A stretch of 64,000 nucleotides of DNA from Solidesulfovibrio carbinolicus (GTDB lineage: Bacteria; Desulfobacterota; Desulfovibrionia; Desulfovibrionales; Desulfovibrionaceae), in contig NZ_CP026538.1 in the NCBI RefSeq assembly GCF_004135975.1, positions 1,922,001-1,986,000 on the forward strand, written 5' to 3'. The notes beneath the pieces were generated by a model that ran no database searches, was not told the DNA's origin, and was given only the letters and a program-made list of their open reading frames with translations. Of this stretch, positions 29,852 to 49,533 are shown piece by piece. Position 1 is the first letter of the stretch; each line of letters begins with the position of its first letter. Made by a program: the position numbers and the translations under genes.

Positions 29852-30544
29852 CTAGATCTCCATCATCGCCCCGTTATCCCTCAGCCAATCCCTGCGTTCC
29901 CGATAGTCGGGCAATATCCTGTCGACTGAGCTCCAGAAATCTGCCGTATGCCTGGGATGTATCAGGTGGGCGAGTTCGTGGACCACGATGTAGTCGAGGA
30001 CTTTGAGCGGAGCCATCATGCATTTCCAGTGGAAATTGAGCACGGCGTCAGTCGAGCATGAGGCCCAGCGATGGCCGAGTTCCATGACTCGTACGGCCTT
30101 GGATATAACGCCGAGCTTGGGTTCATAGAACGCCGTTCGCTGGCCGATGCGGTCCCGGCCTTTGGTGCGGTAAAATTCCTTGAACGCTTCGGCGGGATCA
30201 GGGGCCGGCTTGCCTGCTGCGGGGCGGCGCAGCAGGAACCGGCCGTCTTTGAGCAGGAGGGGCTCCTTTTGCTCGTCCACCCAACGCAGGCGGTAGGAGC
30301 GGCCGAGGTAGAGGAAGCCTTCACCGTTGACGAACTCGCGATTCACCCGGGCGGCGTTGCGCTCGCGCCAATCGGCCAGGCCTCGGTAAATCCACAGGCG
30401 TTTGGCTTCCAGGATTTCCTCGATTTTTTCCTGGGAGAGGGACTCGGGGACAATGAGCGAGACGGAGCCGTCGCGTTCAATATGGAGGCTGGCGGTTTTG
30501 CGGTTGCTGCGGGTCAGCGAATACTCGATGTCTTTGTAGCGCAT
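29852..30544 (-). CDS. YgjP/DUF45-type zinc metallopeptidase
   Basis: The 230-residue protein belongs to the YgjP/WLM-type M48-like metallohydrolases, with the zinc motif VHELAHLIHPRHTADFW near residue 190 and an upstream RWASCSTDAVLNFHW segment. These proteins are commonly encoded at the end of type I restriction operons, where their role is unknown; a part in processing or control of the HsdR protein has been suggested. Its start codon overlaps the stop of hsdR by one base, showing tight coupling. It ends the hsd operon, 100 bases before the zorA promoter. Confidence 0.85.
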   Translation of the reverse strand: MRYKDIEYSLTRSNRKTASLHIERDGSVSLIVPESLSQEKIEEILEAKRLWIYRGLADWRERNAARVNREFVNGEGFLYLGRSYRLRWVDEQKEPLLLKDGRFLLRRPAAGKPAPDPAEAFKEFYRTKGRDRIGQRTAFYEPKLGVISKAVRVMELGHRWASCSTDAVLNFHWKCMMAPLKVLDYIVVHELAHLIHPRHTADFWSSVDRILPDYRERRDWLRDNGAMMEI

Positions 30545-33500
30545 TATTTGACGAGATCCCGGTGCCGGGCCTTGGCCAGCTCCACGATGTCTGCGACGAG
30601 CTTTTCGCTGGCGTCGATGATCTCACCGATGCCCGTAAAGAGCATCAGGTCGGAAAGTCGGCCCTTGAGCGCGCTTATGTCGGAGGGGCGCGACCAGAAA
30701 TTGATGATGTTGATGGTTTGTTGCAAGGCTTCGACGATGTCGGCCACAAGCTGTTTGACGGTCTGGGCATGGGCCTTGGGCACGCCATCTCTGCCAAAGG
30801 CAATCATGCCGATAAGTTCGTAAAAAGGCGCTTCCTGGGGCTTGATGCCGTCATCAGGCTCTGGGCGACCATTTTTCGCTTCCAGGCGGATTTCCAGCAT
30901 GCCCTGGCACAGTTTATCCCAGTCCTCTTTGTGCTTCTGGATCAGGGCTTCGAGCTTTTCGCTTAAGCGCGCGTAGAAGGCCGGGTCTTCCCCGAAATGG
31001 ATTTTGCAGTGTTTGCGGATGGCGTGTTCCATCTCGCTGGCCTTGGCTTTGTCGCTTACGTGCTTTTCGACCTGCTCGATGAAGCGCGGGGACATGAGCT
31101 CGACGGGCGGAATTTTGGGGTCGATGCCGAGGCTTATCAGATGCTCGTTGATGAGCTTTTTGACCTTCTCGCCGGCTCCGGCGATGTCGATGGAATCGTC
31201 CTTGTACCGCTCCCTAACCATGGCCAGCAGGTAGCCGAAACGTTTGGCCGGAATCTTGTACGGATTGGCGGCGGCGTGGGGCAGGACGATGTCCAGGCTT
31301 TGCAGAAACTTTTGCAGATAGACCTCGAAGTCGGCCCGCAGCTTGATGTCGCGGAGCATCTCCACGGCCTGCTCGACGATCTCCAGCGAGGCGGCGCGCT
31401 CGGTGATCTCCTGGGTGACGAAGGCTTCCATGTCCTCCACGCCGTTGCCGGCGAAGAACTGGATGAGGCGGCGGTAGCGGCTTTCGAGGATGGGGATTTC
31501 CGAGGAAATGTCTTGCAGCGCCCCGGCCGCGTCGTCGTAGTCTTCGCCGGCATAGATGGACAGGGCTTTGCGCAGATGGTTGGCGAGGCCGATGTAATCG
31601 ACGATGTAGCCGCGCTGCTTGCCTTTCTTGACCCGGTTTACCCGGGCGATGGTCTGGAGCAGGTTGTGATCCTTGATTTTCTTGTCGATGTACATGACCT
31701 GTTCGATGGGAGCGTCGAAGCCGGTGAGCAGGCGGTCGCAGACGATGAGGAAGGCGATGCCAGTATGCGGTTCTTTGGAATCAATGGCCCGCTTGAAATT
31801 CTGGATGGCGTTGCGTTCCTTGGCCGATTTGACGGCGTGGAGCACGTCGGCGCGCTCGTTGACGCCGTCTATGGACAGGATGACGGCCGTTTTCAGAAAG
31901 GCGATGGCGGCGATGCGTTCCGAGTCCGGCTGCGGTTTGGCCGTTTCCGCCTCTAGAGCGGCGGCCAGGGCCTTGTCGATGGCCCGCTGGTATCGCACGG
32001 CGGCGAGCTTGGAGCTGGTGACGACTTGGGCCTTGAAGCCGTTGGGCAGGATGTTGTCGATATAATGCCGGACCAGATCGACGGCGATGGCGTCGATGCG
32101 TTTTTCGGCTTCGAGCAGATCGCCTGTTGTGCCGTATTTTTTCTTTATGGCCAGGATTTCCTCGTCGGTGCGCTCCTTGAAGAGATCCTCGAATTTCTGA
32201 TCGAACTCGTGCCGCTCGTTGATGGCCGTCTCGGCCGTTTTGCCTTCGTAGAGAATCTGGACCGTGGCCCCGTCTTTCACGGCGTCTTCGAGCTTGTATT
32301 TGTCGATGTAGTCCCCGAAGCGGCGGATGGTCGGTTCCCGGCTTGCGCCGCTTAAAAGCGGGGTGCCGGTGAAGGCGATGCGGGTGGCATTGGGGAAGGC
32401 CTCGAAAAGGTTGTCGGCCATGTCGCCGGACTGGCTGCGGTGGGCTTCGTCCACCATGATGAGCACGCGCTCGGAGGCGTTGACCAGCCCGAAGGCCTCG
32501 AAAACCGGCGGCGTATCCAGGGCCTGGGACAGGTAGCCGGGCATGTGGCGGTGGCCGTTTTCCTGGAACTTGTGGACCATGACCATGTTGAGATTGGAAG
32601 CGGTGGAGGCGAGCTTGTGCTTGAGGGCAGCCGTGGATTGGATGGTGGTCACGGTCTCGCCGGTGAGCGTGGCGGTCTTGCCGAGTTGTTCTTCCAGGTC
32701 GATGCGGTCGTTGACGAGCAGGATCTTGTAGTCCTTGAGATCGTCGCAGCGGCGCATTTTGCGTATGGCAAAGACCATGGTCAGGGATTTGCCCGAGCCT
32801 TGGGTGTGCCAGACCACGCCCGAGCGTTCGCGCGGGGTCCGGCCCTGGCGCAGGCGTTCGATCATCTTTTGAACGGCCCGGTATTGCTGGTAGCGGCCGA
32901 CCACTTTGATGGTGCGGCTGTCGGTGTCCATGAAGACGGCGAAGCTGCGCACGATGTCGAGAAGCGTGGCCGGAGCGAGCATCCCGGCAACGAGGATTTC
33001 CTGTTCGCGGGCGTGGCCGTCCGGTTGGCAGGGAATGGGGCGGCCGTCGGGGACGTAGCGCCAGGCGAAATAGTGTTCGTCCGAGGAGGTGATGGTCCCG
33101 AAGTCGGCCTTTTCGCCGCAGGTGCGGATCATAAGCTGGTTGGCGTGAAACAGGCGCGGTTCGCCTTCGCGCAGGCCGGCCGCCGCTGTTTCCTCGCGCT
33201 GTTCGCTGTAGCGGCGCAGTTGGCGGTAGGCCTCATACATGGAGTCGGCGGCGTTGGCGTCGGCCTCCTTGCACTCGATGACGACCAGCGGCAGGCCGTT
33301 TACGAACAGGACGACGTCCGGCAGGATGAACTGTTTGACGCCGCCCGGCGTGTCGAGGCGAAACTGGTTGATGGCCAGGAAGTGGTTTTTCTCCGGGGCC
33401 TCGAAGTTGATGATGTGCACTTCTGGCGAGGCTTCGTCGGTCAGCTCGTTGCAATCGACGGTGGCCTTGTTCAGTAGCCGCAAGACTTCCCGATTGGCTT

Positions 33501-33789
33501 CGACGAGGCTTTTGCCGGGATGGTTGGTCAGTTCTTCGTGGAGATCGTCGAGTTGCTTGTCGGTCAGCCACTCCCGGCCGTCGGGCAGGGCGTTGGCGGC
33601 GCGCACGCTTTGCCGGAAGACGTCCTTGAGGGTGACCTCGCGGAAGGAGGCGCGGCAGGATTTGGCGGGATCGGACGGTATCTCGGCAAAGCCCTGGTCG
33701 ATGACCTCCCAGCCCAGCCCAGTCAACTGATCGAGGAGGGGCTTTTCGACGTTGCGGTATTCGGGCATGGCGGCTCGCTTGTCCGTCAC
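30544..33789 (-). CDS. hsdR: Type I restriction endonuclease subunit R
   Basis: The 1081-residue protein is HsdR, the translocating and cutting subunit. The N-terminal nuclease shows LPDVVLFVNGLPLVVIECKE (Asp, then Glu-x-Lys). The helicase motor shows GVVWHTQGSGKSLTMVF (motif I) and VLIMVDEAHRSQSGDM (DEAH box), with RIAFTGTPLL (motif III) and a C-terminal helical region for complex assembly. The start at 33789 is GTG; ATG at 33768 (MPEYRNVEKP) is the likely alternative. Order in the transcript is hsdM, hsdS, a GIY-YIG gene, hsdR and the metallopeptidase gene. All motor motifs are intact. Confidence 0.93.
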   Translation of the reverse strand: MTDKRAAMPEYRNVEKPLLDQLTGLGWEVIDQGFAEIPSDPAKSCRASFREVTLKDVFRQSVRAANALPDGREWLTDKQLDDLHEELTNHPGKSLVEANREVLRLLNKATVDCNELTDEASPEVHIINFEAPEKNHFLAINQFRLDTPGGVKQFILPDVVLFVNGLPLVVIECKEADANAADSMYEAYRQLRRYSEQREETAAAGLREGEPRLFHANQLMIRTCGEKADFGTITSSDEHYFAWRYVPDGRPIPCQPDGHAREQEILVAGMLAPATLLDIVRSFAVFMDTDSRTIKVVGRYQQYRAVQKMIERLRQGRTPRERSGVVWHTQGSGKSLTMVFAIRKMRRCDDLKDYKILLVNDRIDLEEQLGKTATLTGETVTTIQSTAALKHKLASTASNLNMVMVHKFQENGHRHMPGYLSQALDTPPVFEAFGLVNASERVLIMVDEAHRSQSGDMADNLFEAFPNATRIAFTGTPLLSGASREPTIRRFGDYIDKYKLEDAVKDGATVQILYEGKTAETAINERHEFDQKFEDLFKERTDEEILAIKKKYGTTGDLLEAEKRIDAIAVDLVRHYIDNILPNGFKAQVVTSSKLAAVRYQRAIDKALAAALEAETAKPQPDSERIAAIAFLKTAVILSIDGVNERADVLHAVKSAKERNAIQNFKRAIDSKEPHTGIAFLIVCDRLLTGFDAPIEQVMYIDKKIKDHNLLQTIARVNRVKKGKQRGYIVDYIGLANHLRKALSIYAGEDYDDAAGALQDISSEIPILESRYRRLIQFFAGNGVEDMEAFVTQEITERAASLEIVEQAVEMLRDIKLRADFEVYLQKFLQSLDIVLPHAAANPYKIPAKRFGYLLAMVRERYKDDSIDIAGAGEKVKKLINEHLISLGIDPKIPPVELMSPRFIEQVEKHVSDKAKASEMEHAIRKHCKIHFGEDPAFYARLSEKLEALIQKHKEDWDKLCQGMLEIRLEAKNGRPEPDDGIKPQEAPFYELIGMIAFGRDGVPKAHAQTVKQLVADIVEALQQTINIINFWSRPSDISALKGRLSDLMLFTGIGEIIDASEKLVADIVELAKARHRDLVK

Positions 33790-33807
33790 ATCGACGCAGC
33801 AAGCGGC

Positions 33808-34683
33808 CTAGGGCGTCGCCTCCTGGTTCGCTTCAGACGTTTGCAGTTCCTTCAGCGTCTTCCCGCTCTTGTCCTTCCACTTTGTCCGCCCATTGGTATT
33901 GCGACCAAGGACAATGCTGGCCGCTAGGCTCGGAGAATTAAAAACATAATCTTGCGAGAAGGCATATGTGTCGTTCTGTTTAATTAGAACTTCCTGTCTT
34001 ATCAAGTCATTTCTTAAATTGGCGGTGCCATCTGGGTACGAGGGGACAGTCTGCTTTTTTGCTTGAGAGCCTTTTCGTACTACAAAACCTCGGCTGCTTT
34101 CATACCCTTGAGCTTCTATGTCCGTACCTTTCAGAAAAAGCATGGTCTTGCCGCGCGCCGTGGCGGCCCGTGCCTCGAACACCGACAGGCCGAGCAGTGG
34201 GAAGATGCCGAGCATGTCGGCCAGGAAGCTTTCGGTGTCGGCCAGCTCGGCCTCGGCCAGGGTGGGCGGCTGGGGCGTTTGCACATTGTCGAGGTTGGCC
34301 TGCTTGGCCGCCTTGGCCAGCTCCACCAGCCGGCATTCCAGGTGTTTGACGTGCGCCTTGTTGAGGCTGCCGTCGGCGGCGGTGAAGAATACGGCCCAGG
34401 TCCAGAAATCTTTGCCTGCGTAATGGCTGTCCAGGCGCGGCTTTATGGGGTCGCCCTCGCCGATGTAGACGGTGGGCAGGCTGCTGTCCTCGGACGGACC
34501 GACCAGGATGTAGACGCCGGTCTTGGTGATTTCCGGCCGTTTGGCCGCTTCCTGGTAGGCGGTGCGGTTAAAGACCACGCCTGTGCCGGTCCAGTTGGAT
34601 TTGCCGATGACGCGCAGCCCGTCCGGGTCGCCGTGCGGCAGAAAGATTTTGATGGAGTAGGGCCGGCTGGCGCTAGGGGGCAT
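33808..34683 (-). CDS. GIY-YIG / DUF4357 protein in the hsd operon
   Basis: The 291-residue protein starts [20 protein letters not shown], and its first 11 bases overlap hsdS. Residues about 40-110 carry a GIY-YIG-like core: GVYILVGPSED, VYIGEGDPIKPRLDSHY, then KAHVKHLECRL. The C-terminal part (about 220-290) matches DUF4357, with RQEVLIKQNDTYAFSQDYVF. Such proteins occur between hsdS and hsdR in many type I loci; whether they cut DNA is not established. The frame is open upstream into hsdS, but the proline-rich upstream segment is antisense-like and I exclude it. Confidence 0.8.
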   Translation of the reverse strand: MPPSASRPYSIKIFLPHGDPDGLRVIGKSNWTGTGVVFNRTAYQEAAKRPEITKTGVYILVGPSEDSSLPTVYIGEGDPIKPRLDSHYAGKDFWTWAVFFTAADGSLNKAHVKHLECRLVELAKAAKQANLDNVQTPQPPTLAEAELADTESFLADMLGIFPLLGLSVFEARAATARGKTMLFLKGTDIEAQGYESSRGFVVRKGSQAKKQTVPSYPDGTANLRNDLIRQEVLIKQNDTYAFSQDYVFNSPSLAASIVLGRNTNGRTKWKDKSGKTLKELQTSEANQEATP

Positions 34684-35915
34684 GGTGTGGCTCCTGGGTG
34701 GTGGAGGGGTCTGCGGTGGGGACGCGGACGCGGCCGGAGAGGAGGTCTTGCATGAGGCCGGATTTAAGTACTTGCAGTTTATCCTTAGTCTGTCTGGTAT
34801 TCTGGATTTTTGACTCAACTGTGTCGAGCCGCAATGAAATACGCATCTGTTCTTCGCGAGTTGGTCGCGCAAATGGGAATTTTGCAAATCGGTCCGCGCC
34901 TAAGTGGGCCACTGATGTTGTTTGTCTGGCGATAGTCATGAATAATTCAGTGTCTAGCCAATTTTTGAACACCAACCAGCAGAACCTATGGTCGTTTTCT
35001 GGGAAGGCCCTAAATCGAATAAGTGTATTTTGAAAACAATATCTATTAGGTTCTCCTTCGTAAATTGCACTTCTTCCGACAAGCTCCAGGCTCTGTCCTT
35101 CATTTAGAAATATATCTCCGGGAAGTACATTGTAGGTTAACTTCTCTTCTGGAGTAAAGTCCATCGCTAAAATATCTGAATAGTCTATCCAGCCATCGAA
35201 TACATTTGCGACACGAAGGTATGGAGTGGTGTGTTTTCCAGTAGTATGCTTGGGGGATCGCTGTCGACCTAATCGCACAGAACCAATCTCATGGACTTGT
35301 TTAACCTCCCACTCCTTCGGAATCCACCCCAACTCCGATTCCTTATACAGCTCCGGCGCTTCCTCGCGCGGCGGCCGCAAATGGCCGTTTGCATCCACGC
35401 CCCGCGTAAACAGGTCGTGCATCATGCCCTGCTTGATGGACTGATACTTGGCAATGGCGGCTTCGGTTTGTTCGATGAGGTTGTCGACGGTTGATAGAAT
35501 GTTCGCGATATCGCTCTGGATTTTTTTGTCAGCTGGAATCGAGAAAGGAAAGTCTTTTAAGTGTTTTAAATGTCTGTCGTAGCCATAGTTTCCAATTGAT
35601 GATGCTGCTTGGCATACTTTGTAATATAAAAATTTTGGATGGATTTTATCGTTTGATTTTATGAGTTGTGTGCCGTCGGCTCCAGCTGCAAATGGAAAGT
35701 CTATGTATTTTACTTGTCGAGTGTGGTCTCCAAATATTATTGCAGGTAAAATATTAGTATGTGCATGCTGTATGTTGTCGGTGTATCCGGCAATTTTACT
35801 TGAACTTTGGTCAATGATGGGGATTGTTCCAATTGGCAAGTATTCAGTTGATTTAACTTGTTTTGATTTGTCATTGCATACAGTGATAAAGTCGCATAGT
35901 TTTCCTTCCAGTGTA

Positions 35916-35923
<8 letters not shown>
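34673..35923 (-). CDS. hsdS: Type I restriction specificity subunit S
   Basis: The 416-residue HsdS determines the DNA recognition sequence. It has two target-recognition domains (about 1-130 and 205-350), each followed by a conserved helix: [20 protein letters not shown] with the [20 protein letters not shown] spacer, and the C-terminal [20 protein letters not shown]. The central [14 protein letters not shown] marks the second domain start. It overlaps hsdM by 8 bases and the GIY-YIG gene by 11. The first domain is more AT-rich than its surroundings, as is usual for exchanged recognition domains. Confidence 0.93.
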
Positions 35924-38570
<2,647 letters not shown>

Positions 38571-38909
38571 GGGCAGCGGCAATCCTTGATAACGTCGTTC
38601 GAGGCGCAAGAAACGGGCATCATCCCATTGAAAACAAAGGATTGCTTATAACAGGGCGGAGCTGCTGGCAAGCATATCCCCCAGAGAGATTTGCTGATGG
38701 CCGAATGATGATCACTAGGTCGGCATTGCAAAAAACATTGGATTTCAGGGTTACTTTTGGTTATTAACACAATAATCCCATTTGATTGAATTTTTGTGTG
38801 CTTCGATGGAATCGCTTGTAGGGAGATATCTCGCTCGGGCTCTAGCCGTTGAGGCGATTACCGGGGTCACTGTCCGGGGTTTGGTAGCGGTTGTAGCCGA
38901 TACGGGGGC
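38571..38909. other. Intergenic upstream of hsdM
   Basis: This 339-base region should contain the hsdM promoter (minus strand). I cannot pick a single -35/-10 pair. The plus-strand frame at 38782-38973 has no recognisable product. A broken WYL fragment begins at its right edge. Confidence 0.35.
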
Positions 38910-39041
38910 GATGATAAATTTGAACTTTTATTTACAGCTAGTGATGAAGATGAGTTTTTTTCTTGGGTGTTGAGTTTTGGTCAGTTTGCTGAAATTGTAT
39001 CACTAATTCCAACAGTTAAACCACCGCCTCTGGCGGTGTGA
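38910..39041 (+). pseudogene. 3' remnant of a WYL regulator gene
   Basis: A 43-codon plus-strand frame reads FELLFTASDEDEFFSWVLSF then GQFAEIV. It closely parallels the end of the intact WYL regulator at 43078-44058 (VLEFTAANEEEVVSWALSFG). Only the last WYL-domain strand and helix remain, and the final residues run into a hairpin, so the 3' end was probably replaced by another insertion. It marks the left side of the cassette at 39301-42953. Confidence 0.65.
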
Positions 39042-39185
39042 CCCGAATCGGTTCGACCGTTCCGGGAATCTGGCCTTCGGTAATCAATCCAACAAGTGAT
39101 TCATAATGGCAGGATATCGGAAGTTTCTTATTCTTGAGTCGTTAGCCCCCTTCGAGGGGGCATCGTCATACCAACGGCTATGCCG
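39022..39185. repeat. Hairpin-rich block, possible IS200/IS605-type end
   Basis: Three hairpins follow each other: CACCGCC/GGCGGTG (39022-39038), GCCCCCT/AGGGGGC (39145-39161) and CGGC/GCCG (39175-39185). Sub-terminal imperfect hairpins of this kind are typical of IS200/IS605 ends or of the RNA encoded at a tnpB 3' end. No transposase or tnpB gene is present, so only an end may be left. Confidence 0.4.
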
Positions 39186-39300
39186 GTGGTCGCGGATTGA
39201 CTTGTGTAATGAGTTTGTAGGTAAAATCAAAACAATCTCACTTATATAATTTTGATATTTTTCAATAGTTAGTGCAATTTTTGACGCTAGGTTTGATTTG

Positions 39301-39990
39301 ATGGAAAAATACCAATTTATATGTCAAAGATGTGGAGGTTGTTGTTCGCAACTGACTCTGTTTGGAGGATTGTATGATGACCTCGATAGAGGAGATGGTG
39401 TCTGTTTGTATTACAATATGCGGTTAAAGTCTTGTAATATTTACAATAATAGGCCTATGAAGTGTCAGGTTGAGAGGCAATTTGTTGATTTCGCTAGTGA
39501 AATGAGTTTCGAGTCTTATGTTGAACTGTGCAAAAAAGGATGTTCTTTTTTGCAAAATAAACAGATCCTGTCCGATAGATGGGGTAAACCAGTGGAGGCG
39601 AGTGTGTTTATTCAAAATCTTTCCGCTGAGCAGCAATCTGTTTTTTTGCATCTTATTCATGAAATTGCTTCTGTAGATGGTGTTGTTGCTTTGGAAGAGC
39701 AGCACATGATGGATATTTTTCAGTCACAAATGCCTGGAATTGTCCCTATAAAGTGTTCACATGAAGAATTATCGAAGGTTTTTAACTCAAAACGTGTGCG
39801 CGTATCGGCGTTTCTTGAGATCGCTGCCATTGCACAAGCTGAAAGTGGGATAAATATCGAAGAAAGACAGTATCTTGACAGTTTGGCTGCCGCTTTTGAT
39901 TTGAAGGATTTCGAAGTAGATGACATGATCTCATGGGTGGTTCGTCAATTTAATCTCATAAGCGAAGCTCAAGCTTTTATGGAGGATTAA
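39301..39990 (+). CDS. YkgJ-type cysteine cluster fused to TerB-like domain
   Basis: The 229-residue protein starts MEKYQFICQRCGGCCSQLTL. Its N-terminal 60 residues hold cysteines at 8, 11, 14, 15, 35, 45 and 55, in the CxxCGGCC-C-C-C pattern of YkgJ-like metal-binding proteins. The C-terminal half resembles TerB: VFLHLIHEIASVDGVVALEE and AQAESGINIEERQYLDSLAA, two acidic metal-binding-like repeats. TerB-type proteins occur in tellurite resistance and phage-defence loci. The ATG at 39301 is preferred over a TTG one codon earlier. It heads a three-gene plus-strand cassette, two bases ahead of the next gene. I know no standard system with this fusion. Confidence 0.65.
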   Translation: MEKYQFICQRCGGCCSQLTLFGGLYDDLDRGDGVCLYYNMRLKSCNIYNNRPMKCQVERQFVDFASEMSFESYVELCKKGCSFLQNKQILSDRWGKPVEASVFIQNLSAEQQSVFLHLIHEIASVDGVVALEEQHMMDIFQSQMPGIVPIKCSHEELSKVFNSKRVRVSAFLEIAAIAQAESGINIEERQYLDSLAAAFDLKDFEVDDMISWVVRQFNLISEAQAFMED

Positions 39991-39992
39991 TC

Positions 39993-41012
39993 ATGCCACT
40001 GCCCCTTATTCCCATTGTCTTGGGTGGAATAGCTCTGCTTTCTGGTGGTTACGGCGTCAAAAAGGGTTTCGACGCTAAAGAAGATTATGATCGAGCTGAT
40101 GTGCTTAACAACGAGGCAACTACTATTTACGACGACGCGTGTGAGAAGCTTAAAGTTGCGCGTGATGGAGCTAAATATGCTTTAAAAAATTTGGGCGAAA
40201 CAAAGTTTCAAGTTTATAAAAACAGCATCATTCCGTTTGTTGAGTTTTTTTCAAAGATTAAGGCTATCGATTTTCAGGATAAAATGATTGCTGACGAGTT
40301 GAAGGAGATGGCCATATCGAGTGACGATTTACGGGAAATCACCAGAGTTGCATTAAAAATGCAGGAGGTTGTCGGAGGTGGCATAGCTGCTTTAGGCGCA
40401 GGTGGTCTAGCAGGGTTGGCGGCTTACGGTGGTGTCGGTACATTAGCCACGGCAAGCACTGGAACTGCTATCGCTTCTTTGGGTGGAGTCGCTGCGACCA
40501 ATGCCACTCTAGCTTGGCTTGGTGGTGGCGCGCTCAGCGCTGGGGGACTGGGCGTAGCAGGCGGAACGGCTGTTCTCGGAGGTATAGTGGCCGGTCCCGT
40601 CCTTGCTATTGGTGGGATGATGCTCGCTGCTAAGGCAGAGGAGGCTAAACACAATGCCTACGCTAACCGGGACAAAGCGCGTATGGCTGCGCAGCAGATG
40701 AAGACAGCTGAGGTTGCTACCAACGGAATACAGAAGCGCTTGGCAGAAATTGACCAACTATTGCTGAAATTGGATCGGATTTTTCAGCCCTTGCTGGGTG
40801 GGCTTCGATGGCTAGTTGCCTCTGGACGTTGCGACTATAGCGAGTACTCTCTTCCGGATAGGAAAGGAGTGATGATGGCAGCCCTTCTAGCTAAGACGCT
40901 AAAAGTTGTTTTGGAAACACCAATCTTAGACAAAGACGGTGCACTGACCAGTGCATCCAGAAGAGTTCTTGCTGATACTGATCGAGAAATCAATAAAATT
41001 AATCAGATGTAA
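39993..41012 (+). CDS. Glycine-zipper, membrane-active-like protein
   Basis: The 339-residue protein starts with a hydrophobic segment, LIPIVLGGIALLSGGYG (4-20), and has a long glycine/alanine-rich hydrophobic centre (about 128-210) with repeated G-x-x-x-G spacing, for example GGGIAALGAGGLAGLAAYGG. Helical charged segments lie on either side. Such glycine-zipper hydrophobic stretches occur in pore-forming and membrane-inserting proteins. It starts two bases after the YkgJ-TerB gene stops and ends 19 bases before the next gene, so the three are one operon. Function is unknown; a membrane effector is my inference. Confidence 0.6.
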   Translation: MPLPLIPIVLGGIALLSGGYGVKKGFDAKEDYDRADVLNNEATTIYDDACEKLKVARDGAKYALKNLGETKFQVYKNSIIPFVEFFSKIKAIDFQDKMIADELKEMAISSDDLREITRVALKMQEVVGGGIAALGAGGLAGLAAYGGVGTLATASTGTAIASLGGVAATNATLAWLGGGALSAGGLGVAGGTAVLGGIVAGPVLAIGGMMLAAKAEEAKHNAYANRDKARMAAQQMKTAEVATNGIQKRLAEIDQLLLKLDRIFQPLLGGLRWLVASGRCDYSEYSLPDRKGVMMAALLAKTLKVVLETPILDKDGALTSASRRVLADTDREINKINQM

Positions 41013-41031
41013 GTCGCAGGTAGAGCTCAAA

Positions 41032-42498
41032 ATGTCAGACCTAGACCAAATAGTCGACAAGGTTTCTATAGACCGGAAACTACTTGAGTATGCCTCGACT
41101 ATCGTTTCCGATCATAGGACACAGCACTTGACGGAACACACTAGGCGCATCTTCGCTGATTCTGACCGCCTCATGGATCTGGCGTCAAAATGGCAGAACT
41201 GCGCTGAAGTCCTCACTCAAGGACGCATGTTCGAGCAACTTGAGGTTATCAAATATAATCTCGACAGTCTAGGCAAGGGAGCTACCACCCATGCCGTTAC
41301 TACTGACGCCCTCGGAGATCCGCATGCCTTGGAAGATATCCTAATCCGCAAGGGCAAGAAGGTGTTACGAGAGGTTCAAGCCAAATCGTGTGACAACGCT
41401 GCTCAAAGTGTTTTTGCCCTTTCTGACCCCAAATATAAGGAGATGGACCGGCTTTTACCTAAAGACCAGCACGTGAAAGCAGAAGATCTGCTTGATCAGC
41501 GCCTTGGTAAAGGTACTTTGAAGTCCGAGGACTATGCCCAAACTAAGCGGCACCTCAAGGGCGAGCTTAGTCACGGCGACGTCTCCTCTGGTGGCACCAC
41601 TCGTCAGGAAGCCTTGGACGCGACAAAGATTGAAACTGCCACCGATATGGCTTCGGACTTCAAGCGTAAAGGAGTCCTGGGCGACATGCACCACTCAGGG
41701 ATGGAGGCCGCCAGGATTAGTGGCTCGGTGGCTGGTGGCGTTTCGGCCGTTGGTGGTCTATTCAGGATCGCGCGTGGGGAAGCCACCGTTGGGGAAACAT
41801 TGGCCAAAGTTACTATGGACGCAGCTTCTGGCGCGGTCGTGGGCTACGTCACCACCGCCGCGAGCAAGGGATTTCTTCATGGAGCGGGCAAGTGTCTGAG
41901 CGAGTGCAGCGTAAATGTCATAGCTAAGTCGAACGCTCATATTGCCATAGCAACTGGGTTTGTCCAGTCATGCAAGTCGGTGGCGTCTTATTTAAAAGGT
42001 GATATTGACGAGGAAGTAATGCTTTCAGAAATTAGCCATGTCGCGATTACTGGTGCGACAGCTTTTTATTACGGAGCATTAGGGCAGGTTGTAATACCTA
42101 TTCCAGTTGTTGGTGCTTTAGTCGGCTCTACAGTAGGGTATTATATTGGTAATATGCTACACCAATCCGGCTTAGTCAGTCTTGGAGAGTGTGCGAAAGT
42201 CAAGACAGCCCGAGTGAGGCGGGAAAGAATTCATGATATGACTTTAACGGCAATTCCCCTCATGCGGGCTAAAAGGCTCGAACTTGAACAACTCATTAAT
42301 AATAATATTGCCGAGAGAAAGGCGATCTTGCTCTCTTCCATGGACACTCTAGAAGCATCGGTGCTGCAGTGGGATCCTTTGCGATTTATACACGGTTTGG
42401 AGAATATATGCCAGATTTTCTCTACACACCTGCCCTTTATGAATTTTGAGGAATTTGACTCCTTTATGCAGGACAGCGACTCCGTCTTTATTCTTTAA
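41032..42498 (+). CDS. Nuclease-like/glycine-rich protein, third gene of cassette
   Basis: The 488-residue protein starts MSDLDQIVDKVSIDRK. Residues about 95-200 contain DPHALEDILIRKGKKVLREV followed by QAKSCDN, and then DPKYKEMDRLLPKDQHVKAE, a pattern of D...E-x-Q/K and LxPxDQ that I have seen in predicted nucleases of toxins and prophages; active-site assignment is uncertain. A hydrophobic, glycine/alanine-rich middle (about 225-390) includes SGSVAGGVSAVGG and GALVGSTVGYYIG, suggesting membrane insertion. The ATG at 41032 follows AGGTAGAG. With the preceding gene it could form a two-part membrane toxin or abortive-infection effector. Confidence 0.6.
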   Translation: MSDLDQIVDKVSIDRKLLEYASTIVSDHRTQHLTEHTRRIFADSDRLMDLASKWQNCAEVLTQGRMFEQLEVIKYNLDSLGKGATTHAVTTDALGDPHALEDILIRKGKKVLREVQAKSCDNAAQSVFALSDPKYKEMDRLLPKDQHVKAEDLLDQRLGKGTLKSEDYAQTKRHLKGELSHGDVSSGGTTRQEALDATKIETATDMASDFKRKGVLGDMHHSGMEAARISGSVAGGVSAVGGLFRIARGEATVGETLAKVTMDAASGAVVGYVTTAASKGFLHGAGKCLSECSVNVIAKSNAHIAIATGFVQSCKSVASYLKGDIDEEVMLSEISHVAITGATAFYYGALGQVVIPIPVVGALVGSTVGYYIGNMLHQSGLVSLGECAKVKTARVRRERIHDMTLTAIPLMRAKRLELEQLINNNIAERKAILLSSMDTLEASVLQWDPLRFIHGLENICQIFSTHLPFMNFEEFDSFMQDSDSVFIL

Positions 42499-42662: not shown

Positions 42663-42953
42663 TTACCATAGTCCAAGATCTACAAAGTGGGCCTCGTCAC
42701 AAGGGAAGGGATCTCCGTCTCTCCAGCCTTCCATCCGCAAGTCCATCAGTATGTGAATACGGGCTGCCTTGGCAGCTTCCAGGCCGAATAATCTCTCCAC
42801 TTCACGGATGCCTGCTTCATGGTGACGGAGTCGGCGGTGGCGTGTTCCATAAGGGGGGACGAGGAAGAACTCGTCGAGCCATTTATGGACGGCTTCGTAC
42901 CGTTTTCCTAAAATATTTTGAGTTTCCTGGCAGTGCTGCTCGAAACTTGCCAT
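42663..42953 (-). CDS. DUF6915 family small protein
   Basis: The 96-residue protein begins MASFEQHCQETQNILGKRYE. It has HKWLDEFF, the central TRHRRLRHHEAGIREVERLF and the C-terminal AKAARIHILMDLRMEGWRDG followed by DPFP, which match the DUF6915 family of small acidic/basic proteins. GGAGGA precedes the ATG on the minus strand. The role is unknown. It is often found as a lone accessory gene on mobile elements. Here it is convergent with the cassette at 39301-42498 and divergent from the WYL regulator. Confidence 0.7.
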   Translation of the reverse strand: MASFEQHCQETQNILGKRYEAVHKWLDEFFLVPPYGTRHRRLRHHEAGIREVERLFGLEAAKAARIHILMDLRMEGWRDGDPFPCDEAHFVDLGLW

Positions 42954-43077: not shown

Positions 43078-44058
43078 ATGCCGGCCGAGGAGTCTACCCC
43101 GTCTGAAAAGACAATTTCTCTCTTTGTTCTTTTATTGTTTACAGGGGAATCTTATTCTCTGACGAAACTTAGTGAAAAGTTTAATTGCTCCAAAAGCACT
43201 ATTCTTCGGAGGATTGAAGCTATTGAGAGATGGGCTGGTGAATGTTTAGTTCGTCAAAAAATTGGTAATGAAATAAAATTTAAACTGAATACCCCCAAGC
43301 GCCCGCTAGTCTTTCTCAGTCCAGATCAAATCCGCCATCTGATAATGTGCAGGGATATGGTCTCTCATCTCATGCCAGAATCTATTAAAGACGAGATTGG
43401 TAATACTATTAACACTGCGGCATCATTAGTTGAAGACTTAAGCCAACGTGCTCAAAGTTTTGAGACCATTTGCAGGTCAGAAGTCAAAGGAAGAATTGAT
43501 TATTCTCCATTTGGTGGCGTAATTCTTGAATTGGAATCAGCCATACGTGATCATAGCGTCTGTCTACTCAAATATCAGGCTGTAGCAAAAGATGAACCAC
43601 GAGAACACATGTTCGTTCCCGTTACTCTCTCTTCTTATCGTGAGTCTATTTATGCGTGTGGTGTAAAATTGAACAGTCAACGTCCACATGACGAAGTCGG
43701 ACCAATGGTCCTCGCGGTCCATCGCATCAAGGAGTTGGCCAGGACGCCACTTACGCGGGAGGTTTCCTACCCAGCTGAAATGGATAACTACTTCGGGATC
43801 ATTAAGCATGAGCCCATTCGTATCAAGGTTCTTTTCGACACCTTCGCGGCTACCTATGTTCGGGAACGCGAATGGAGCACTGATCAATGCATAACGCCTC
43901 AAGACAACGGGGACATTGTCCTTGAATTTACGGCTGCCAATGAAGAGGAAGTTGTCTCCTGGGCACTCAGTTTCGGGAAACGTGCGACGGTCCTTGAACC
44001 GAAACAGGTTCGGGAGAGGATCAAGAGCGAACTGAGCGTCATGATCAACGCCTATTGA
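43078..44058 (+). CDS. WYL-domain transcriptional regulator
   Basis: The 326-residue protein has an N-terminal winged helix-turn-helix (SLTKLSEKFNCSKSTILRRI, about 27-46) and a C-terminal WYL domain (about 150-235, with LLKYQAVAKDEPREHMFVPV) followed by the WCX-type end VLEFTAANEEEVVSWALSFG. WYL proteins sense nucleic-acid ligands and repress defence operons. It lies between the three-gene cassette and recD. The preceding GGAGG is well spaced. A decayed copy of its 3' end lies at 38910-39041, so the cassette is framed by WYL sequences. Its targets could be the cassette, the zor promoter or the rec operon. Confidence 0.88.
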   Translation: MPAEESTPSEKTISLFVLLLFTGESYSLTKLSEKFNCSKSTILRRIEAIERWAGECLVRQKIGNEIKFKLNTPKRPLVFLSPDQIRHLIMCRDMVSHLMPESIKDEIGNTINTAASLVEDLSQRAQSFETICRSEVKGRIDYSPFGGVILELESAIRDHSVCLLKYQAVAKDEPREHMFVPVTLSSYRESIYACGVKLNSQRPHDEVGPMVLAVHRIKELARTPLTREVSYPAEMDNYFGIIKHEPIRIKVLFDTFAATYVREREWSTDQCITPQDNGDIVLEFTAANEEEVVSWALSFGKRATVLEPKQVRERIKSELSVMINAY

Positions 44059-44081: not shown

Positions 44082-45953
44082 CTAATTTCCTTTGACGGCT
44101 TGGTCCCCTTTGCCGTTGGCATCACTGTGTGTCCAGTCCTGCGCAACCAGCAGATTTCGCAGGTTTGAATGCCTGGATATCACCTTCGTGACGCAGTCCC
44201 TGATCAACTTGCTACCGCCAATGACCATTGCCTGTTTTTTGGCCCGCGTGATGGCGGTATAAAGCAGTTCTCGCGTCAAGACAGGACTCTCCCGGTCCGG
44301 CAACAGGAAATAGACCACATCAAACTCCGATCCCTGGGACTTGTGGACCGTCATGGCGTAAACTTCCTCCACAGCTGTCAAGCGTGTCGGAGAGAAGTGC
44401 CTCCAGCCGCCGTGGGTTCCGGGAAACCATACTCGCAGGGATCCCGTCTCGTCCTCGAGGGCCACGCCCATATCGCCGTTGAAGAGACCCAGCGATGGGT
44501 CGTTGCGCGTGATCAGAACCGGCTTGCCCGGATGCCAGAATCCCGAGCGCACTATGGCTCCCCGTTCCCTGAGCAAGCCATCGATGTGTCGGTTCAGACC
44601 TTCTACGCCATAGGCCCCCTGCCGCAGTGGCGTCAGCAACCGCAGACTACCCCAGGCCCTGAAGGCCTCATCCGGCGAGTGTGCATTCAGGGCCGCCGTA
44701 TATCCATGGATGAGCGGTTCGAGGGCGGTCCAGACTTCCTCATTCGTTTTCGGTTGCACCCAGGTCAGGTCTATATGTGGCTCAGCCAGGACGGCGAGCG
44801 TCGCATCCGCATCCCCCGTTCGCACGGCTCGACTGACGGCTGCGATGCCGCTCGTGTCATCGAAACGCCATGTCCGGTTTAGGTGGACCACGGCGTCGGC
44901 GAGGGGGGGCGTTGGTTCCGGTGCCGACGGCAGGTCCTGGGCCTTTGGGAAAACCCTTGCCAGGGACTCCCGGAATTTTCCTGAAAACCCTGTGACCCAG
45001 CCGTCGCCGCAGATGTCTGCCAGGGCCGCTCCGGCTTCCACCGAGGCCAATTGATCGCGATCGCCGAGCAGGATGAGTCGCGCCTCATTGGGGAGCGCGC
45101 GAACCAGTTTGGCCATGACCGGCAAAGAGGCCATGGAGGCTTCATCTACGAACACCAAGGAGTAGGGCAGGGGGTTGTCCCGGTCATGGCGTGTCTTGGG
45201 CGAGTTCGGGCGCAGGCCGAGTAGTCGGTGCAGGGTGGTCGCTTCGGTGGGCAGGTCATTGGCTCTTGCGGTGAGGGCGGGTATTGCAAACGCTTGGCGC
45301 AAGGATTCGTAAAGTCGTGCGGCCGCCTTGCCCGTTGGCGCAGCAAGGGCGATGCGGTGGCCGGGGATTCCCTCGAGGTCCTGGAGCATGGCCACAATGC
45401 GGGCGGCGGTAAAGGTCTTGCCCGTGCCAGGGCCGCCGGTAATCACGGCAAGATGCGAACGACAGGCGGAGAACGTCGAGGCCATCTGCATGTCCAGTTC
45501 GCTTGCACCGTCTGGAAAGAGTCGGCGCAAGGCTTCCCGGGCGGCGTGTTCATCGGTTGCGGCAGGCTTTGTGGCAAGCTTCAGGAGGCCTTCGGCCAGA
45601 TCCCGTTCGTATTGGTGATAGCGTCTCAGATAGAGCCGGGTGCCGTCGAGCACGAGGGGGGTGAAATCCTCCGGTCCGCCGAGACAGGGGAGACCGGACA
45701 AAGCGGACAGTAGGCGTGTCGCGTCGGGTAGTGGAAAAGAGATCTCCGGAAAGATCGTTTCGAGTGGCAAGGAGAGATCGATGCAGATATGCCCGAGGCC
45801 CGTGCCCCGGCTGGTCAGCGCGGCGGCCAGGGCCAGGTCATCCGCATGACAATCGCCTAGGTGGCAGAGGCAGTTCGCGAAATGCAGGTCCATAGGTTCG
45901 AACATCGGCATCTCGCGAAGCTTGGTGACAGCCGGGGACTCAGTGCGAAGCAT
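44082..45953 (-). CDS. recD: RecD, exonuclease V alpha subunit
   Basis: The 623-residue protein is the 5'-3' helicase subunit of RecBCD. Motifs: ITGGPGTGKTFTAARIVAML (motif I, about 168-187), VFVDEASMASLPVMAKLVRA (motif II), LILLGDRDQLASVEAG (motif III) and LYTAITRAKKQAMVIGG (motif VI). Length is close to E. coli RecD. Its start overlaps the end of recB by 14 bases. It is the last gene of recC-recB-recD. The WYL regulator gene converges on it, with 23 bases between the two stops. Confidence 0.92.
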   Translation of the reverse strand: MLRTESPAVTKLREMPMFEPMDLHFANCLCHLGDCHADDLALAAALTSRGTGLGHICIDLSLPLETIFPEISFPLPDATRLLSALSGLPCLGGPEDFTPLVLDGTRLYLRRYHQYERDLAEGLLKLATKPAATDEHAAREALRRLFPDGASELDMQMASTFSACRSHLAVITGGPGTGKTFTAARIVAMLQDLEGIPGHRIALAAPTGKAAARLYESLRQAFAIPALTARANDLPTEATTLHRLLGLRPNSPKTRHDRDNPLPYSLVFVDEASMASLPVMAKLVRALPNEARLILLGDRDQLASVEAGAALADICGDGWVTGFSGKFRESLARVFPKAQDLPSAPEPTPPLADAVVHLNRTWRFDDTSGIAAVSRAVRTGDADATLAVLAEPHIDLTWVQPKTNEEVWTALEPLIHGYTAALNAHSPDEAFRAWGSLRLLTPLRQGAYGVEGLNRHIDGLLRERGAIVRSGFWHPGKPVLITRNDPSLGLFNGDMGVALEDETGSLRVWFPGTHGGWRHFSPTRLTAVEEVYAMTVHKSQGSEFDVVYFLLPDRESPVLTRELLYTAITRAKKQAMVIGGSKLIRDCVTKVISRHSNLRNLLVAQDWTHSDANGKGDQAVKGN

Positions 45954-48900
45954 GGGTCGCCTCCCTTGCGTGCGGCGTCAGGATCGCTTGTTCCAGGTCC
46001 ATCAGGAACCCCTGGGCCGGGCGGTCGTGGAAGATTCCCTGGCCGACGGCGTCCGGGCTGGCGCCGCGCAGGAAGATATACAAAACCCCGCCGAAGTGGA
46101 GATCGTAGTCGTAGCCGGGGCAGGTGGCGCGTAGGTGGCGATCGAGGGCCAGGCAGTAGAGGTGGTACTGGAGGAAATAGCGGTTTTCCGCCATGACCAC
46201 AGGCAGGCGTTCCGGGGCATGGTCCTGCGGCGGGAGGCGGTTCGACTTCCAGTCGAGCAGGTAATAGCGGCCGCCGTGGCAAAAGACGAGGTCCATGGAG
46301 CCGGTCAGAAAGCCCTGGCGGACGGACGGGCGCAATTTGGCGGCCCATGGGCTCCAGTCGTACGGGAAACTGTTCGCCCACTGGGCATAAATTCGGGCGA
46401 GGGTGGGGCCGTCCAGCCGGTCCAGGGGAAGCAGGAACTCCATCTCGGCAGCCGTATGGTCCCTGACGACATCAGCCAGGGTAAAGCCGTCCGGCAACGG
46501 TGCAAGGACCACCCGCTGGGCCAAGTCGGCCAGTTCCCCGGACAGGTCCCTGGACAGACCGTGACGGATCAGACAGTGGGCAGCCCAACGCTCGATGCCG
46601 AGACGCGCGTCAGGATCGGATGAGGCCGCAGCCTGAAAATCAAGCCGCTCGAAAAAGGTATGGAACATGATGCCGGGCACGGCTCCGGCCGGAAGCCGGT
46701 CGCGCCGGGCTGTGGCGAGGGTGGCGACGGTGGGGGTATTGGTCTCATCCCGCTCGAAAAGGGGCAGCCTTGACGCATCGGACGCGTTCCTGGACAGCGC
46801 AGTGAAGCTCGTGGTGCCGAACGATGGGTCGAGATGGCGGGTGAATTGTCTCGCTTCCAACGTGACAGGGTCTGGATTGTCGGCCGGGAGGCGTGTGTCC
46901 GAAGGTCGGGGCAGGGGCGCGATCTCTATGGAAGGGCAGTTCGAAGCCAGATCTTTCAACGCTCTGTCTACTGTCTCGGCTGTGGGTATTTTGCCTTCAT
47001 GGACAAGACGTCCAAGAGGTGTTCGCTTCACACTGCCAAACGCCCCCCAGGCAAGGTAACAACGGCATTTAGCCCGAGTCAGGGCCACATAGAAAAGGCG
47101 CATCCGCTCGGCCTCGAGTTCTTGCTCTATTCTCGCCCTCGTCGGTTCAGGAAGTTCCTTGGAAAGGTCCAGGGTAGGTATGTGACCCTTCATCGGATCG
47201 TGGTAGACGCTGCGATCGATCTCCTTTGGATCGCTCCAGGCGACGTAGGGGAGAAAGACGATCTCGAATTCGAGCCCCTTGCTCTTGTGCACGGTCATGA
47301 TCCGCACGGCCGGCGCGTCGGTCTCCAGGCGGATGAGCATCTCCCCCGCCTCGTCCTCGGCGTCGTTTGAACCGGATCGGATTGCCTCCAGCCAGGCGGC
47401 TAGATCCAGGACGCCAAGTCCCGTCTCGATCTCGCGTTGATGGAGCAGTTCGACGCACTGCAGGAGGTTGGTCATCCGCCGTTCCCCATCGGGTAGGCCA
47501 AGTAGGCGCTCTCGAACCTTTCCCCTGGAAAAAAGCACAGCGACGAAGGCCATGACGCCCTGTCCGGCCCAGATAGAATGGTACTCCGCAAACTGTTCGA
47601 GTAGTTCCTCACGCAGTGCGTCGTCGATGTCGAGCCGGTCCAGATCGGCGGCGGTCCACCCCAGAATGGCTGTGGACAGAGCCGCACGTCGCAGTCCCTC
47701 CCTGTCGTATGCGGCCACTGCGCGAAGCACGATGGCCAGTTCGTCGGCCTCAACGGACTCAAAGATTTTGTCGGTCTGTTGTCGAACACTTGGGATGCCT
47801 CGTGCCGCCAAGGCCTCCCTGATGATGCCCGCCTCCTTGTGGCTTTTGACTAATACGGCGAAATCTGAGGCAGCCAGGGGACGTTTTTGTCCGCTAGTGG
47901 CATCAGTAATGGTGGCTTTCCCCTGACTGGACAGGATGAGGAGTCGGACGATCTCTTCGGCCACAGCCAAGGCCACCGGCTGTTCAGCTTTCCCCTTGGC
48001 GACGTTTCCGCCGGGTTCGTCCCCAATATCTTCCGAGCGTATATGCCAGACGCGCAGGCACGCCGGACCTTCGTCGGCGACGGTCAACCGCTGTTTCGCA
48101 CCGGGGCGCGGACTGACGGGTTCAAAGGCGATTTCCCGGAAGACAAAGGGCTCCTTGGCGCCGAAGATCGCCTTCACGGCTGCAAGCATGCCGGGATCGC
48201 TGCGCCAGTTGACGTTCTGGGTCAGGATTTGGTCAGCGTTGTGGATAGCTTCCAGGTAGGCGAAGACGTCGGCTCCGCGAAAAGCGTAGATCGCCTGTTT
48301 GGGATCGCCGATGCAGTACAGGGCGTGCGGCGGTTCGGCAAAAAGCGTGTGAAAGATCTCGTATTGGAGCAGGTCCGTGTCCTGGAACTCGTCGATGAGG
48401 GCCGCCTTGAGGCCGGCACGGACTCTGTCGCGCAGGAGGCGGCCGCCGGGGCCGTGGAGGGCGGCGTGGGTTTCGTTTAAGAGATCGGAAAAGCCGAGTT
48501 GTCGACGTTCCGCCTTGTACCGTCGCAACGCATTGCCGAAACCGAGCCCGAATGCCCGCAGGAGCGCCACGCGTCGCAAGTCCAGGTGGCTGAGCAGGTT
48601 TTCCAGATGTGTAAAGAAGGGATGTGCGGGAGGGGGCGCCTTTTTTTTCAGGTTGGCGACCAGACTCGAGGCACAAAGACGGTCGATGTCCGCTGGAAGA
48701 AACAGTGGCGAAGTTCCATTTTCAAAGAACCTGTCCAGGGCCTCCTTCATGCCCGGCAGATCCTCCTCTCGTAAGTGATTTTTGAGCATGGTCCTGTTGT
48801 CCAGGCAGGAGCAGAATTCTTCCCGCAGGTCCTTCCACGCATCCCCGGCCTTAAAAAGCATCACTTCAAGATCTCGCGAAAAGCAGTCCCTGTCCGTGCA

Positions 48901-49533
48901 GTTTTCCGGAAGGTCGTCGGGCAGGATCCGCAGGCGGGGGTTCCGGATTCCCTTATCGAGCAGGCCGTGGAGTTTTTCCGTGAATGTTCCAGCCAGGCGC
49001 GCGGCCACGACGGCTTCACCTTCCTGGACATGGGCACGGTAAAAATCCTGGACAGCCTGCCGATGGCAGAGGGTCTCATCGGTAAGCATGGTGAAGCGAA
49101 AAAGTCCGCCGCACTCGAAGGCGCAGTCAGTGAGGATCCTTTTGCAGAAGGCGTGAATGGTGTGGATAGCGGCGAGATCGAAATCGAGCAACGCCTTTGA
49201 TGCACGCTCTCCGGCTAAACGGTGGCCTACGGAGCCAAGGAGTTGAGTCAGGAAGGGATCGCCGGGGGGAGCCGCCTTCGGATCGCAGGCCGCCAGCGCC
49301 TCCATAAGGCGGGCGCGGATGCGGGTCTTGAGTTCGGCGGTCGCGGCCTCAGTGAAGGTGACCACGAGCACCTCGTCCACGCCGAGTCCCTGTTCGAGGA
49401 CCAAGCGCAGAAATAGAGCCGCCAGGGCGTAGGTCTTTCCCGTACCCGCGCTGGCCTCGACCACGGTACGACACCCGGACAGGGGAACGCTCCCGAGATC
49501 AAGGGGTTTTCGAACCGGACCGGGGGATGTCAT
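45940..49533 (-). CDS. recB: RecB, exonuclease V beta subunit
   Basis: The 1197-residue RecB has an N-terminal UvrD-type helicase, with VEASAGTGKTYALAALFLRL (motif I), ALIDEFQDTDLLQYEIFHTL (motif II) and AEDEAGEMLIRLETDAPAVR then MTVHKSKGLEF (motif V). The C-terminal nuclease shows GSMDLVFCHGGRYYLLDWKS, with the catalytic Asp-Asp-x-Lys set, and the QYHLYCLALDRHLR helix. The ATG at 49533 overlaps the recC stop by four bases; the frame is open further upstream but that region is recC antisense. All catalytic residues appear intact. Confidence 0.93.
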   Translation of the reverse strand: MTSPGPVRKPLDLGSVPLSGCRTVVEASAGTGKTYALAALFLRLVLEQGLGVDEVLVVTFTEAATAELKTRIRARLMEALAACDPKAAPPGDPFLTQLLGSVGHRLAGERASKALLDFDLAAIHTIHAFCKRILTDCAFECGGLFRFTMLTDETLCHRQAVQDFYRAHVQEGEAVVAARLAGTFTEKLHGLLDKGIRNPRLRILPDDLPENCTDRDCFSRDLEVMLFKAGDAWKDLREEFCSCLDNRTMLKNHLREEDLPGMKEALDRFFENGTSPLFLPADIDRLCASSLVANLKKKAPPPAHPFFTHLENLLSHLDLRRVALLRAFGLGFGNALRRYKAERRQLGFSDLLNETHAALHGPGGRLLRDRVRAGLKAALIDEFQDTDLLQYEIFHTLFAEPPHALYCIGDPKQAIYAFRGADVFAYLEAIHNADQILTQNVNWRSDPGMLAAVKAIFGAKEPFVFREIAFEPVSPRPGAKQRLTVADEGPACLRVWHIRSEDIGDEPGGNVAKGKAEQPVALAVAEEIVRLLILSSQGKATITDATSGQKRPLAASDFAVLVKSHKEAGIIREALAARGIPSVRQQTDKIFESVEADELAIVLRAVAAYDREGLRRAALSTAILGWTAADLDRLDIDDALREELLEQFAEYHSIWAGQGVMAFVAVLFSRGKVRERLLGLPDGERRMTNLLQCVELLHQREIETGLGVLDLAAWLEAIRSGSNDAEDEAGEMLIRLETDAPAVRIMTVHKSKGLEFEIVFLPYVAWSDPKEIDRSVYHDPMKGHIPTLDLSKELPEPTRARIEQELEAERMRLFYVALTRAKCRCYLAWGAFGSVKRTPLGRLVHEGKIPTAETVDRALKDLASNCPSIEIAPLPRPSDTRLPADNPDPVTLEARQFTRHLDPSFGTTSFTALSRNASDASRLPLFERDETNTPTVATLATARRDRLPAGAVPGIMFHTFFERLDFQAAASSDPDARLGIERWAAHCLIRHGLSRDLSGELADLAQRVVLAPLPDGFTLADVVRDHTAAEMEFLLPLDRLDGPTLARIYAQWANSFPYDWSPWAAKLRPSVRQGFLTGSMDLVFCHGGRYYLLDWKSNRLPPQDHAPERLPVVMAENRYFLQYHLYCLALDRHLRATCPGYDYDLHFGGVLYIFLRGASPDAVGQGIFHDRPAQGFLMDLEQAILTPHAREATHASH

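Follow-up and report, generated by a model that had tools for sequence, protein, structure and literature searches.

Relation to described systems

Shango, the ter operon, SNIPE and the candidate system PDC-M09 are the closest described counterparts of the three-gene cassette analyzed here, which comprises genes A, B and C (Table 1) and lies in a 64,000-nucleotide stretch of the genome of Solidesulfovibrio carbinolicus (contig NZ_CP026538.1, positions 1,922,001 to 1,986,000), referred to below as the window. According to the accessible parts of the cited sources, Shango is a TerB-containing defence system in which a TerB-like protein is combined with a helicase and an ATPase (PMC10250203), the ter operon has a phage-inhibition phenotype, with the link reported since 1995 (cited in PMC12054061), and deletion of terC in Klebsiella results in larger phage plaques (PMC12054061). 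For SNIPE, which is unrelated, a nuclease bound to the membrane has been shown to cleave phage DNA as it is injected (PMC13190303). Membership of PDC-M09 was judged from the model names and matches of PADLOC-DB 2.0.0; a literature search found neither the name 'PDC-M09' nor activity data for this candidate.

Genes B and C were found to match the PDC-M09A and PDC-M09B models, respectively, and are adjacent on one strand. B begins 2 bases after A and C begins 19 bases after B, and the coordinates of the three plus-strand genes in the preliminary description of this DNA proved exact when the open frames were re-read. The match of B (E 1.3e-30) spans profile positions 10-263 of 282, and that of C (E 4.4e-10) covers part of the profile, its best stretch being 304-378 only. 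The cassette differs from PDC-M09 in this partial match and in gene A, which matched no PADLOC model. The statement that no named system has this set consequently holds for gene A and fails for B and C. The B-C pair is an already listed candidate, and its YkgJ/TerB partners and swappable cutting parts look new. Neither these partners nor the variability of C's front part, the apparent exchange of C or the association with ter, all described below, appeared among the literature matches listed, the two most relevant texts lying outside the search.

As far as the accessible texts allow a comparison, the cassette resembles Shango in having a TerB-like protein within a defence gene set, but Pfam showed neither a helicase nor an ATPase domain in its three proteins, and the cassette has B, C and a YkgJ domain instead. 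It shares a TerB domain with the ter operon, which relatives of B-C adjoin on Klebsiella plasmids, and differs from it in its nuclease-like and YkgJ parts; no TerC or TerD match was obtained (Pfam) in A, B, C or the neighbouring WYL gene. A membrane-held nuclease may be a principle shared with SNIPE, as may variable N-terminal regions, but SNIPE carries DUF4041 and GIY-YIG in one protein, whereas the window has a PD-(D/E)xK-like module in a multi-gene set, and no GIY-YIG or DUF4041 match (Pfam) was found in the C protein of the window or in 53 C relatives.

With a probability of about one half, we propose that the cassette represents PDC-M09 in a form that bears YkgJ and TerB: a complex of B and C, held at the membrane and equipped with a nuclease effector, would be gated by the YkgJ-TerB protein and would attack DNA close to the membrane in the course of an infection.

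Conservation of the gene set among relatives

The PDC-M09A family was searched for in 348 genomes of the class (E≤0.001) and detected in 26 of them, some of the matches being weak. Relatives of B were collected with a B alignment from one genome per species, and the best 80 of at least 399, a set that leans towards window-like forms, were combined with the window and 17 other regions. Removal of duplicates and near-copies (L095, L138 and L100) left 96 loci. In three of them the gene caller or the profile gave no B, which leaves 93 loci with B, and 92 B proteins were placed in a tree; three of 20 regions (L039, L057 and L058) stand outside the 96-locus set. The partner profiles were built iteratively from the same loci, and independent support for them comes from Pfam scans and empty controls.

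Within 4.5 kb of B, gene C was found in 86 of the 93 loci, TerB in 47, YkgJ in 39 and a WYL gene of the window type in 22, and 19 loci contain B, C, TerB and YkgJ together. The homologues are thus not the scattered single housekeeping genes that the preliminary description had allowed for. All copies of C (87/87), TerB (47/47) and YkgJ (39/39), as well as 20 of 23 WYL copies, are on the same strand as B. Gene orders are shuffled (C-TerB-B, B-C, TerB-YkgJ-B-C, W-C-TerB-B-YKGJ and more), and fused forms occur, namely YkgJ-TerB in the window and in a genome of the same genus (G325), and YkgJ-B in G157. Base rates are low: at E≤0.01, the S. carbinolicus genome (4.69 Mb) gave one TerB match and eight YkgJ matches (five of them over the cut-off), the divergent gene A itself being absent from these matches, and none of 469 control genes (19 regions, 6 genomes) was matched by the family profiles. 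Given these rates, the linkage of TerB and YkgJ to B is not due to chance.

The 75 B proteins of the tree that have an NCBI rank are spread over 13 phylum-level groups. Changes counted on the tree amounted to 15 for the presence of YkgJ and 14 for that of TerB (77 rows each), 15 for C type and three for B-C order (86 rows each), figures that are rough, with 37 of the 89 inner branches poorly supported. They indicate that partners are gained and lost around a stable B-C core.

A further genome of the genus (G326, locus L057) contains only a fragment matching gene B, in a 149-amino-acid frame; the cassette may be decaying there.

Gene A combines a YkgJ cysteine cluster with a TerB-like domain

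When the protein encoded by gene A was searched alone, its matches to the Pfam families CxxCxxCC (YkgJ; E 0.0066) and TerB (E 0.013) were both under the curated cut-offs, the YkgJ score being 17.6 against 23 bits. Both identities were accepted despite these scores, because the family rows match Pfam: PF03692 (YkgJ) was matched by 31/31 YkgJ-type rows and PF05099 (TerB) by 42/44 TerB-type rows at E≤0.01, with the window protein as one row in each case. In the 31 rows of the YkgJ family, C14, C15, C35, C45, C55 and C81 are invariant and C8 and C11 are present in at least 90%, and the TerB family profile retrieves the solved TerB structures 2ou3 and 2jxu (~1e-4). On family rows and cysteine pattern gene A counts as a member of PF03692, and on family rows and structure matches as a member of PF05099. 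The earlier idea of a metal-cluster sensor-like protein (YkgJ) fused to a TerB-like domain is borne out at the family level for both domains.

Gene C has a variable front part and has diverged less than A and B

Pfam gave only weak matches to gene C. The C family is polymorphic: a C-terminal domain of ~105 residues is near-universal, and the front part differs, with a PD-(D/E)xK-like nuclease in 54 of 88 C proteins and an M48 peptidase in all three long forms scanned; some C proteins have no front part and consist of the C-terminal portion alone. Proteins of the PD-(D/E)xK superfamily have an E..D..(E/Q)xK active site on an alpha-beta-beta-beta-alpha-beta core. The nuclease-like segment noticed earlier in the third protein can be placed at residues about 55-150 of gene C, whose front is likely a PD-(D/E)xK-like nuclease, judging from its motif and structural model. 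The candidate nuclease residues are kept in 38-39 of 39 nuclease-type C proteins; these motif counts and the C model come from an alignment of 39 of the 53 C rows, which are of the nuclease type and were chosen by eye.

The three genes have diverged unequally. Synonymous sites of A and B are saturated between the window and G325 (proportion of synonymous differences, pS, about 0.75), whereas C has 89% DNA identity, with a synonymous divergence (dS) of 0.44 and a ratio of non-synonymous to synonymous divergence (dN/dS) of 0.10. At third codon positions, identity ranges over 0.30-0.55 for blocks of B and over 0.65-0.88 for those of C, the last 8 codons of C being an exception (0.38). Non-synonymous change is well under synonymous change in all three genes. 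The simplest reading of this pattern is that C alone was recently exchanged.

Gene B and its likeness to gene C

No Pfam match was obtained for gene B. Its predicted structure (mean predicted local distance difference test score, pLDDT, 75.5) consists of long helices around a glycine-rich core, which is poorly predicted at residues about 134-208. Hydrophobicity averages show stretches at residues 1-26 and several within 126-216 of B, and at residues 229-247 and about 339-377 of C, in line with the long hydrophobic glycine-rich regions previously attributed to the two proteins. In their C-terminal halves, B and C show a distant similarity (E 1.7e-4, probability 49%), and the B profile was also matched by two C proteins; this hints that B and C may pack together.

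Genomic context of the relatives

Relatives were found close to type I restriction genes (Vitreoscilla), a phosphorothioation-associated gene (Massilia), and SIR2 and toxin-antitoxin genes (Acinetobacter), and a Deinococcus relative of C that lacks B has DISARM DrmD and MmeI nearby. In Escherichia coli, the B-C pair (at least 80% of the query) occurs in 5 of 5,426 genomes; annotation was inspected in two of these (PSJ-29 and ET729) and in 3 of 47 Klebsiella-type plasmid records. The PSJ-29 pair, which matches PDC-M09A at 2.4e-120 and PDC-M09B at 2.9e-214, is located in an island at tRNA-Thr with SIR2, directly downstream of a WYL regulator, and its C protein retains the E, D and QxK positions. 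This natural E. coli version (WYL regulator, M09A, M09B) offers an easy entry for testing. The ET729 pair lies amid insertion sequences and toxin-antitoxin genes.

In PSJ-29 (L203, 8680-11202), the M09A-M09B pair is followed by a third gene, whose 840-amino-acid product has a weak M09B match (E 5.8e-5) and a QxK segment resembling the nuclease motif of C.

In the three Klebsiella plasmids inspected, the B-C pair adjoins a ter operon. At least 80% of the pair is present in 47 plasmid records, and 45 records have 80% or more of the B-C-ter segment as one contiguous piece, the Klebsiella plasmids with pair and ter operon forming one lineage of similar plasmids. TerD genes are close to relatives on two Deinococcus plasmids. 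The window copy is chromosomal (4.5 Mb contig). The B protein of a relative, used as the query, had no match in 50,697 phage records, and viral contigs contained one B relative.

Proposed mechanism and alternative explanations

If the cassette acts as proposed, a complex of B and C probably forms at the inner membrane via their hydrophobic glycine-rich segments and helical C-terminal domains. C would bear an exchangeable effector, here the PD-(D/E)xK-like nuclease on a membrane-type module, and A, with its eight-cysteine metal or Fe-S cluster and TerB domain, would be a sensor or adaptor that keeps the complex inactive and lets it go once an entering phage perturbs the envelope or the metal/redox state. 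The DNA then cut by the nuclease at the membrane would most likely be that of the incoming phage, or else host DNA in an abortive response. More tentatively, the family as a whole might be a widespread modular membrane immune platform, with a constant core (B and the C-terminal domain of C), interchangeable effectors (PD-(D/E)xK nuclease, M48 peptidase or none) and metal/stress sensors (YkgJ, TerB), in which a nuclease or protease bound to the membrane is set off by an envelope or metal disturbance as the phage enters; if true, it would supply an effector for the long-known ter-linked phage inhibition. An anonymous two-gene candidate is turned in this way into a testable design of sensors, scaffold and swappable effector, with likely catalytic residues of C named (E68/D102/K118), an apparent natural exchange of the effector, and a connection with TerB as well as, on a single lineage of plasmids, with the ter operon.

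Several points weigh against the gated nuclease complex. What supports a nuclease is the motif, the topology and a single middling structural match, which stands at rank 36 of the list; phmmer of the nuclease module against PDB sequences gave nothing credible, hhalign against two nuclease-domain proteins gave no match, and Foldseek searches of the PDB with the B and C models returned no match at E≤0.001. TerB and YkgJ are each missing in about half of the loci, and both in 26/93 (some contigs being short), and are therefore not obligatory, and C relatives without a detected B occur on Deinococcus AJ005 and Butyrivibrio plasmids. Viewed from ter, the link is rare: some part of the B-C-ter segment is matched by 2,402 plasmid records, but 80% or more of it only by the 45 mentioned above, which means that the majority of ter plasmids have no B-C pair. 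Enrichment of defence islands beyond the window is not firm, with uneven tallies of PADLOC families (138 families in 140 neighbour proteins vs. 38 in 126 controls) and HsdM homologues near 3/88 loci, the window being one, vs. 0/19 control regions. A 2026 survey describes PDCs in general as putative candidates from guilt-by-embedding, most of them still awaiting validation (PMC12988326). The recurrent set and the PADLOC candidate status speak for the earlier idea of a defence cassette, though not for its newness as regards B and C; its anti-phage role, like membrane location, complex formation, sensing and DNA cleavage, is something we infer.

A different division of labour would have B, together with the membrane-type module of C, open the inner membrane once triggered, so that the infected cell dies, the nuclease or peptidase of C being a secondary or alternative toxin. 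Nearly all of B is predicted as long helices around a glycine-rich hydrophobic core, its sequence weakly resembles an alpha-pore toxin subunit family (E 0.052), and the existence of C forms with the C-terminal part alone means that the effector domains are dispensable. Such an abortive pore is nevertheless doubtful: the hydrophobic core is the low-confidence portion of the B model, no pore-forming toxin fold was present among the 50 matches listed, and the near-complete retention of the nuclease residues indicates that the enzyme matters.

It is unlikely that the genes form a metal or envelope stress-response module associated with Ter systems that protects against phages incidentally or not at all. 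The frequency of TerB at these loci, the position of B-C beside ter in Klebsiella and near TerD in Deinococcus, and the cysteine cluster of YkgJ would suit such a module, but a conserved nuclease and switching to a peptidase suit conflict systems better than homeostasis, the distribution is patchy, with mobile or defence contexts, and the Klebsiella adjacency represents a single plasmid lineage, most ter-matching plasmids being without B-C. Competition between plasmids or mobile elements, or addiction to them, in place of phage defence, appears improbable. Occurrences on plasmids and integrative elements and the apparently independent movement of C are consistent with it; against it are the chromosomal copies in the window and in E. 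coli, the lack of an apparent single obligate antitoxin partner at the 93 loci, and the phage and viral searches, with their single B relative.

Surroundings of the cassette in the window

Besides the ATG of gene C, its frame has a second possible start, a GTG at 40951; the ATG at 41032 was preferred because a same-genus relative has an equal length of 488 amino acids.

Table 1. Positions in the window of the cassette genes, their parts and the adjoining genes
Feature	Position	Strand	Basis or remark
Gene A, YkgJ (8-Cys CxxCxxCC)-TerB-like fusion	39301..39990	+	ATG start, 229 amino acids; open frames, Pfam
YkgJ cysteine-cluster domain, gene A residues 8-81	39322..39543	+	Family-conserved cysteines, 31 rows
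TerB-like domain, gene A residues 96-229	39586..39987	+	Pfam PF05099; family profile vs. solved structures
Gene B, PADLOC PDC-M09A; long helices, hydrophobic N-terminal segment, glycine-rich hydrophobic core	39993..41012	+	339 amino acids
Glycine-rich hydrophobic core, gene B residues 126-216; best-conserved region of the family; low model confidence at residues 141-208	40368..40640	+	
Gene C, PADLOC PDC-M09B; polymorphic effector-type protein	41032..42498	+	488 amino acids from ATG
Likely PD-(D/E)xK-like nuclease module, gene C residues 55-150 (E68, D102, Q116, K118)	41194..41481	+	
Membrane-type module, gene C residues 195-380; helical, hydrophobic stretches	41614..42171	+	
C-terminal domain, gene C residues 381-488; nearly always kept	42172..42495	+	In 87/88 C proteins
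Small DUF6915 gene, between gene C and the WYL gene	42663..42953	-	
WYL/WCX regulator	43078..44058	+	
Type I restriction operon, adjoining	30544..38609	-	HsdR 30544-33789, PDC-S14/DUF4357 33808-34887, HsdS 34673-35923, HsdM 35916-38609

WYL proteins are predicted ligand-sensing defence regulators, according to the accessible part of the source (PMC4012209). The cassette does lie between the type I restriction operon and a WYL regulator, as the preliminary description had it, but the regulator is not clearly a part of this copy. In the same-genus genome G330, a WYL protein 62.6% identical to that of the window is encoded beside the same recD-recB genes, together with a small gene like the DUF6915 gene of the window (by eye) and with unrelated cargo upstream. 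No gene B was found in the G330 genome, and A, B and C are not at its WYL-recDB locus. Since the WYL-recDB arrangement is kept in G330 without A, B and C, the WYL gene of the window most likely belongs with a DUF6915-WYL-recBCD block rather than with the cassette. At other loci, WYL genes often adjoin the system.

The cargo upstream of this block consists of restriction genes and the cassette in the window and is type III CRISPR-like (by eye) in G330. A close relative of the RecD protein of the window (recD and recB, 44082-49980) is present in 2 of 14 genomes of the genus, its own included, the others giving weaker, RecD2-like matches only, and recBCD in the window looks accessory.

Upstream of gene A (39010-39200), short G+C-rich hairpins were seen by eye, with no Rfam match; they are perhaps leftovers of a mobile element. 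The type I restriction operon contains a PDC-S14 gene with DUF4357 (33808-34887; E 4.5e-102 and 1e-22). On the minus strand at 4047-6129, an A+T-rich stretch (35% G+C) contains two genes with PADLOC matches, one to Hp2 (E 2e-29) and the other to Hp1 (E 3e-43), which probably represent a further defence system. A NERD-UvrD helicase protein encoded at 58906-60750 matches PADLOC C3a187 (E 4.6e-66).
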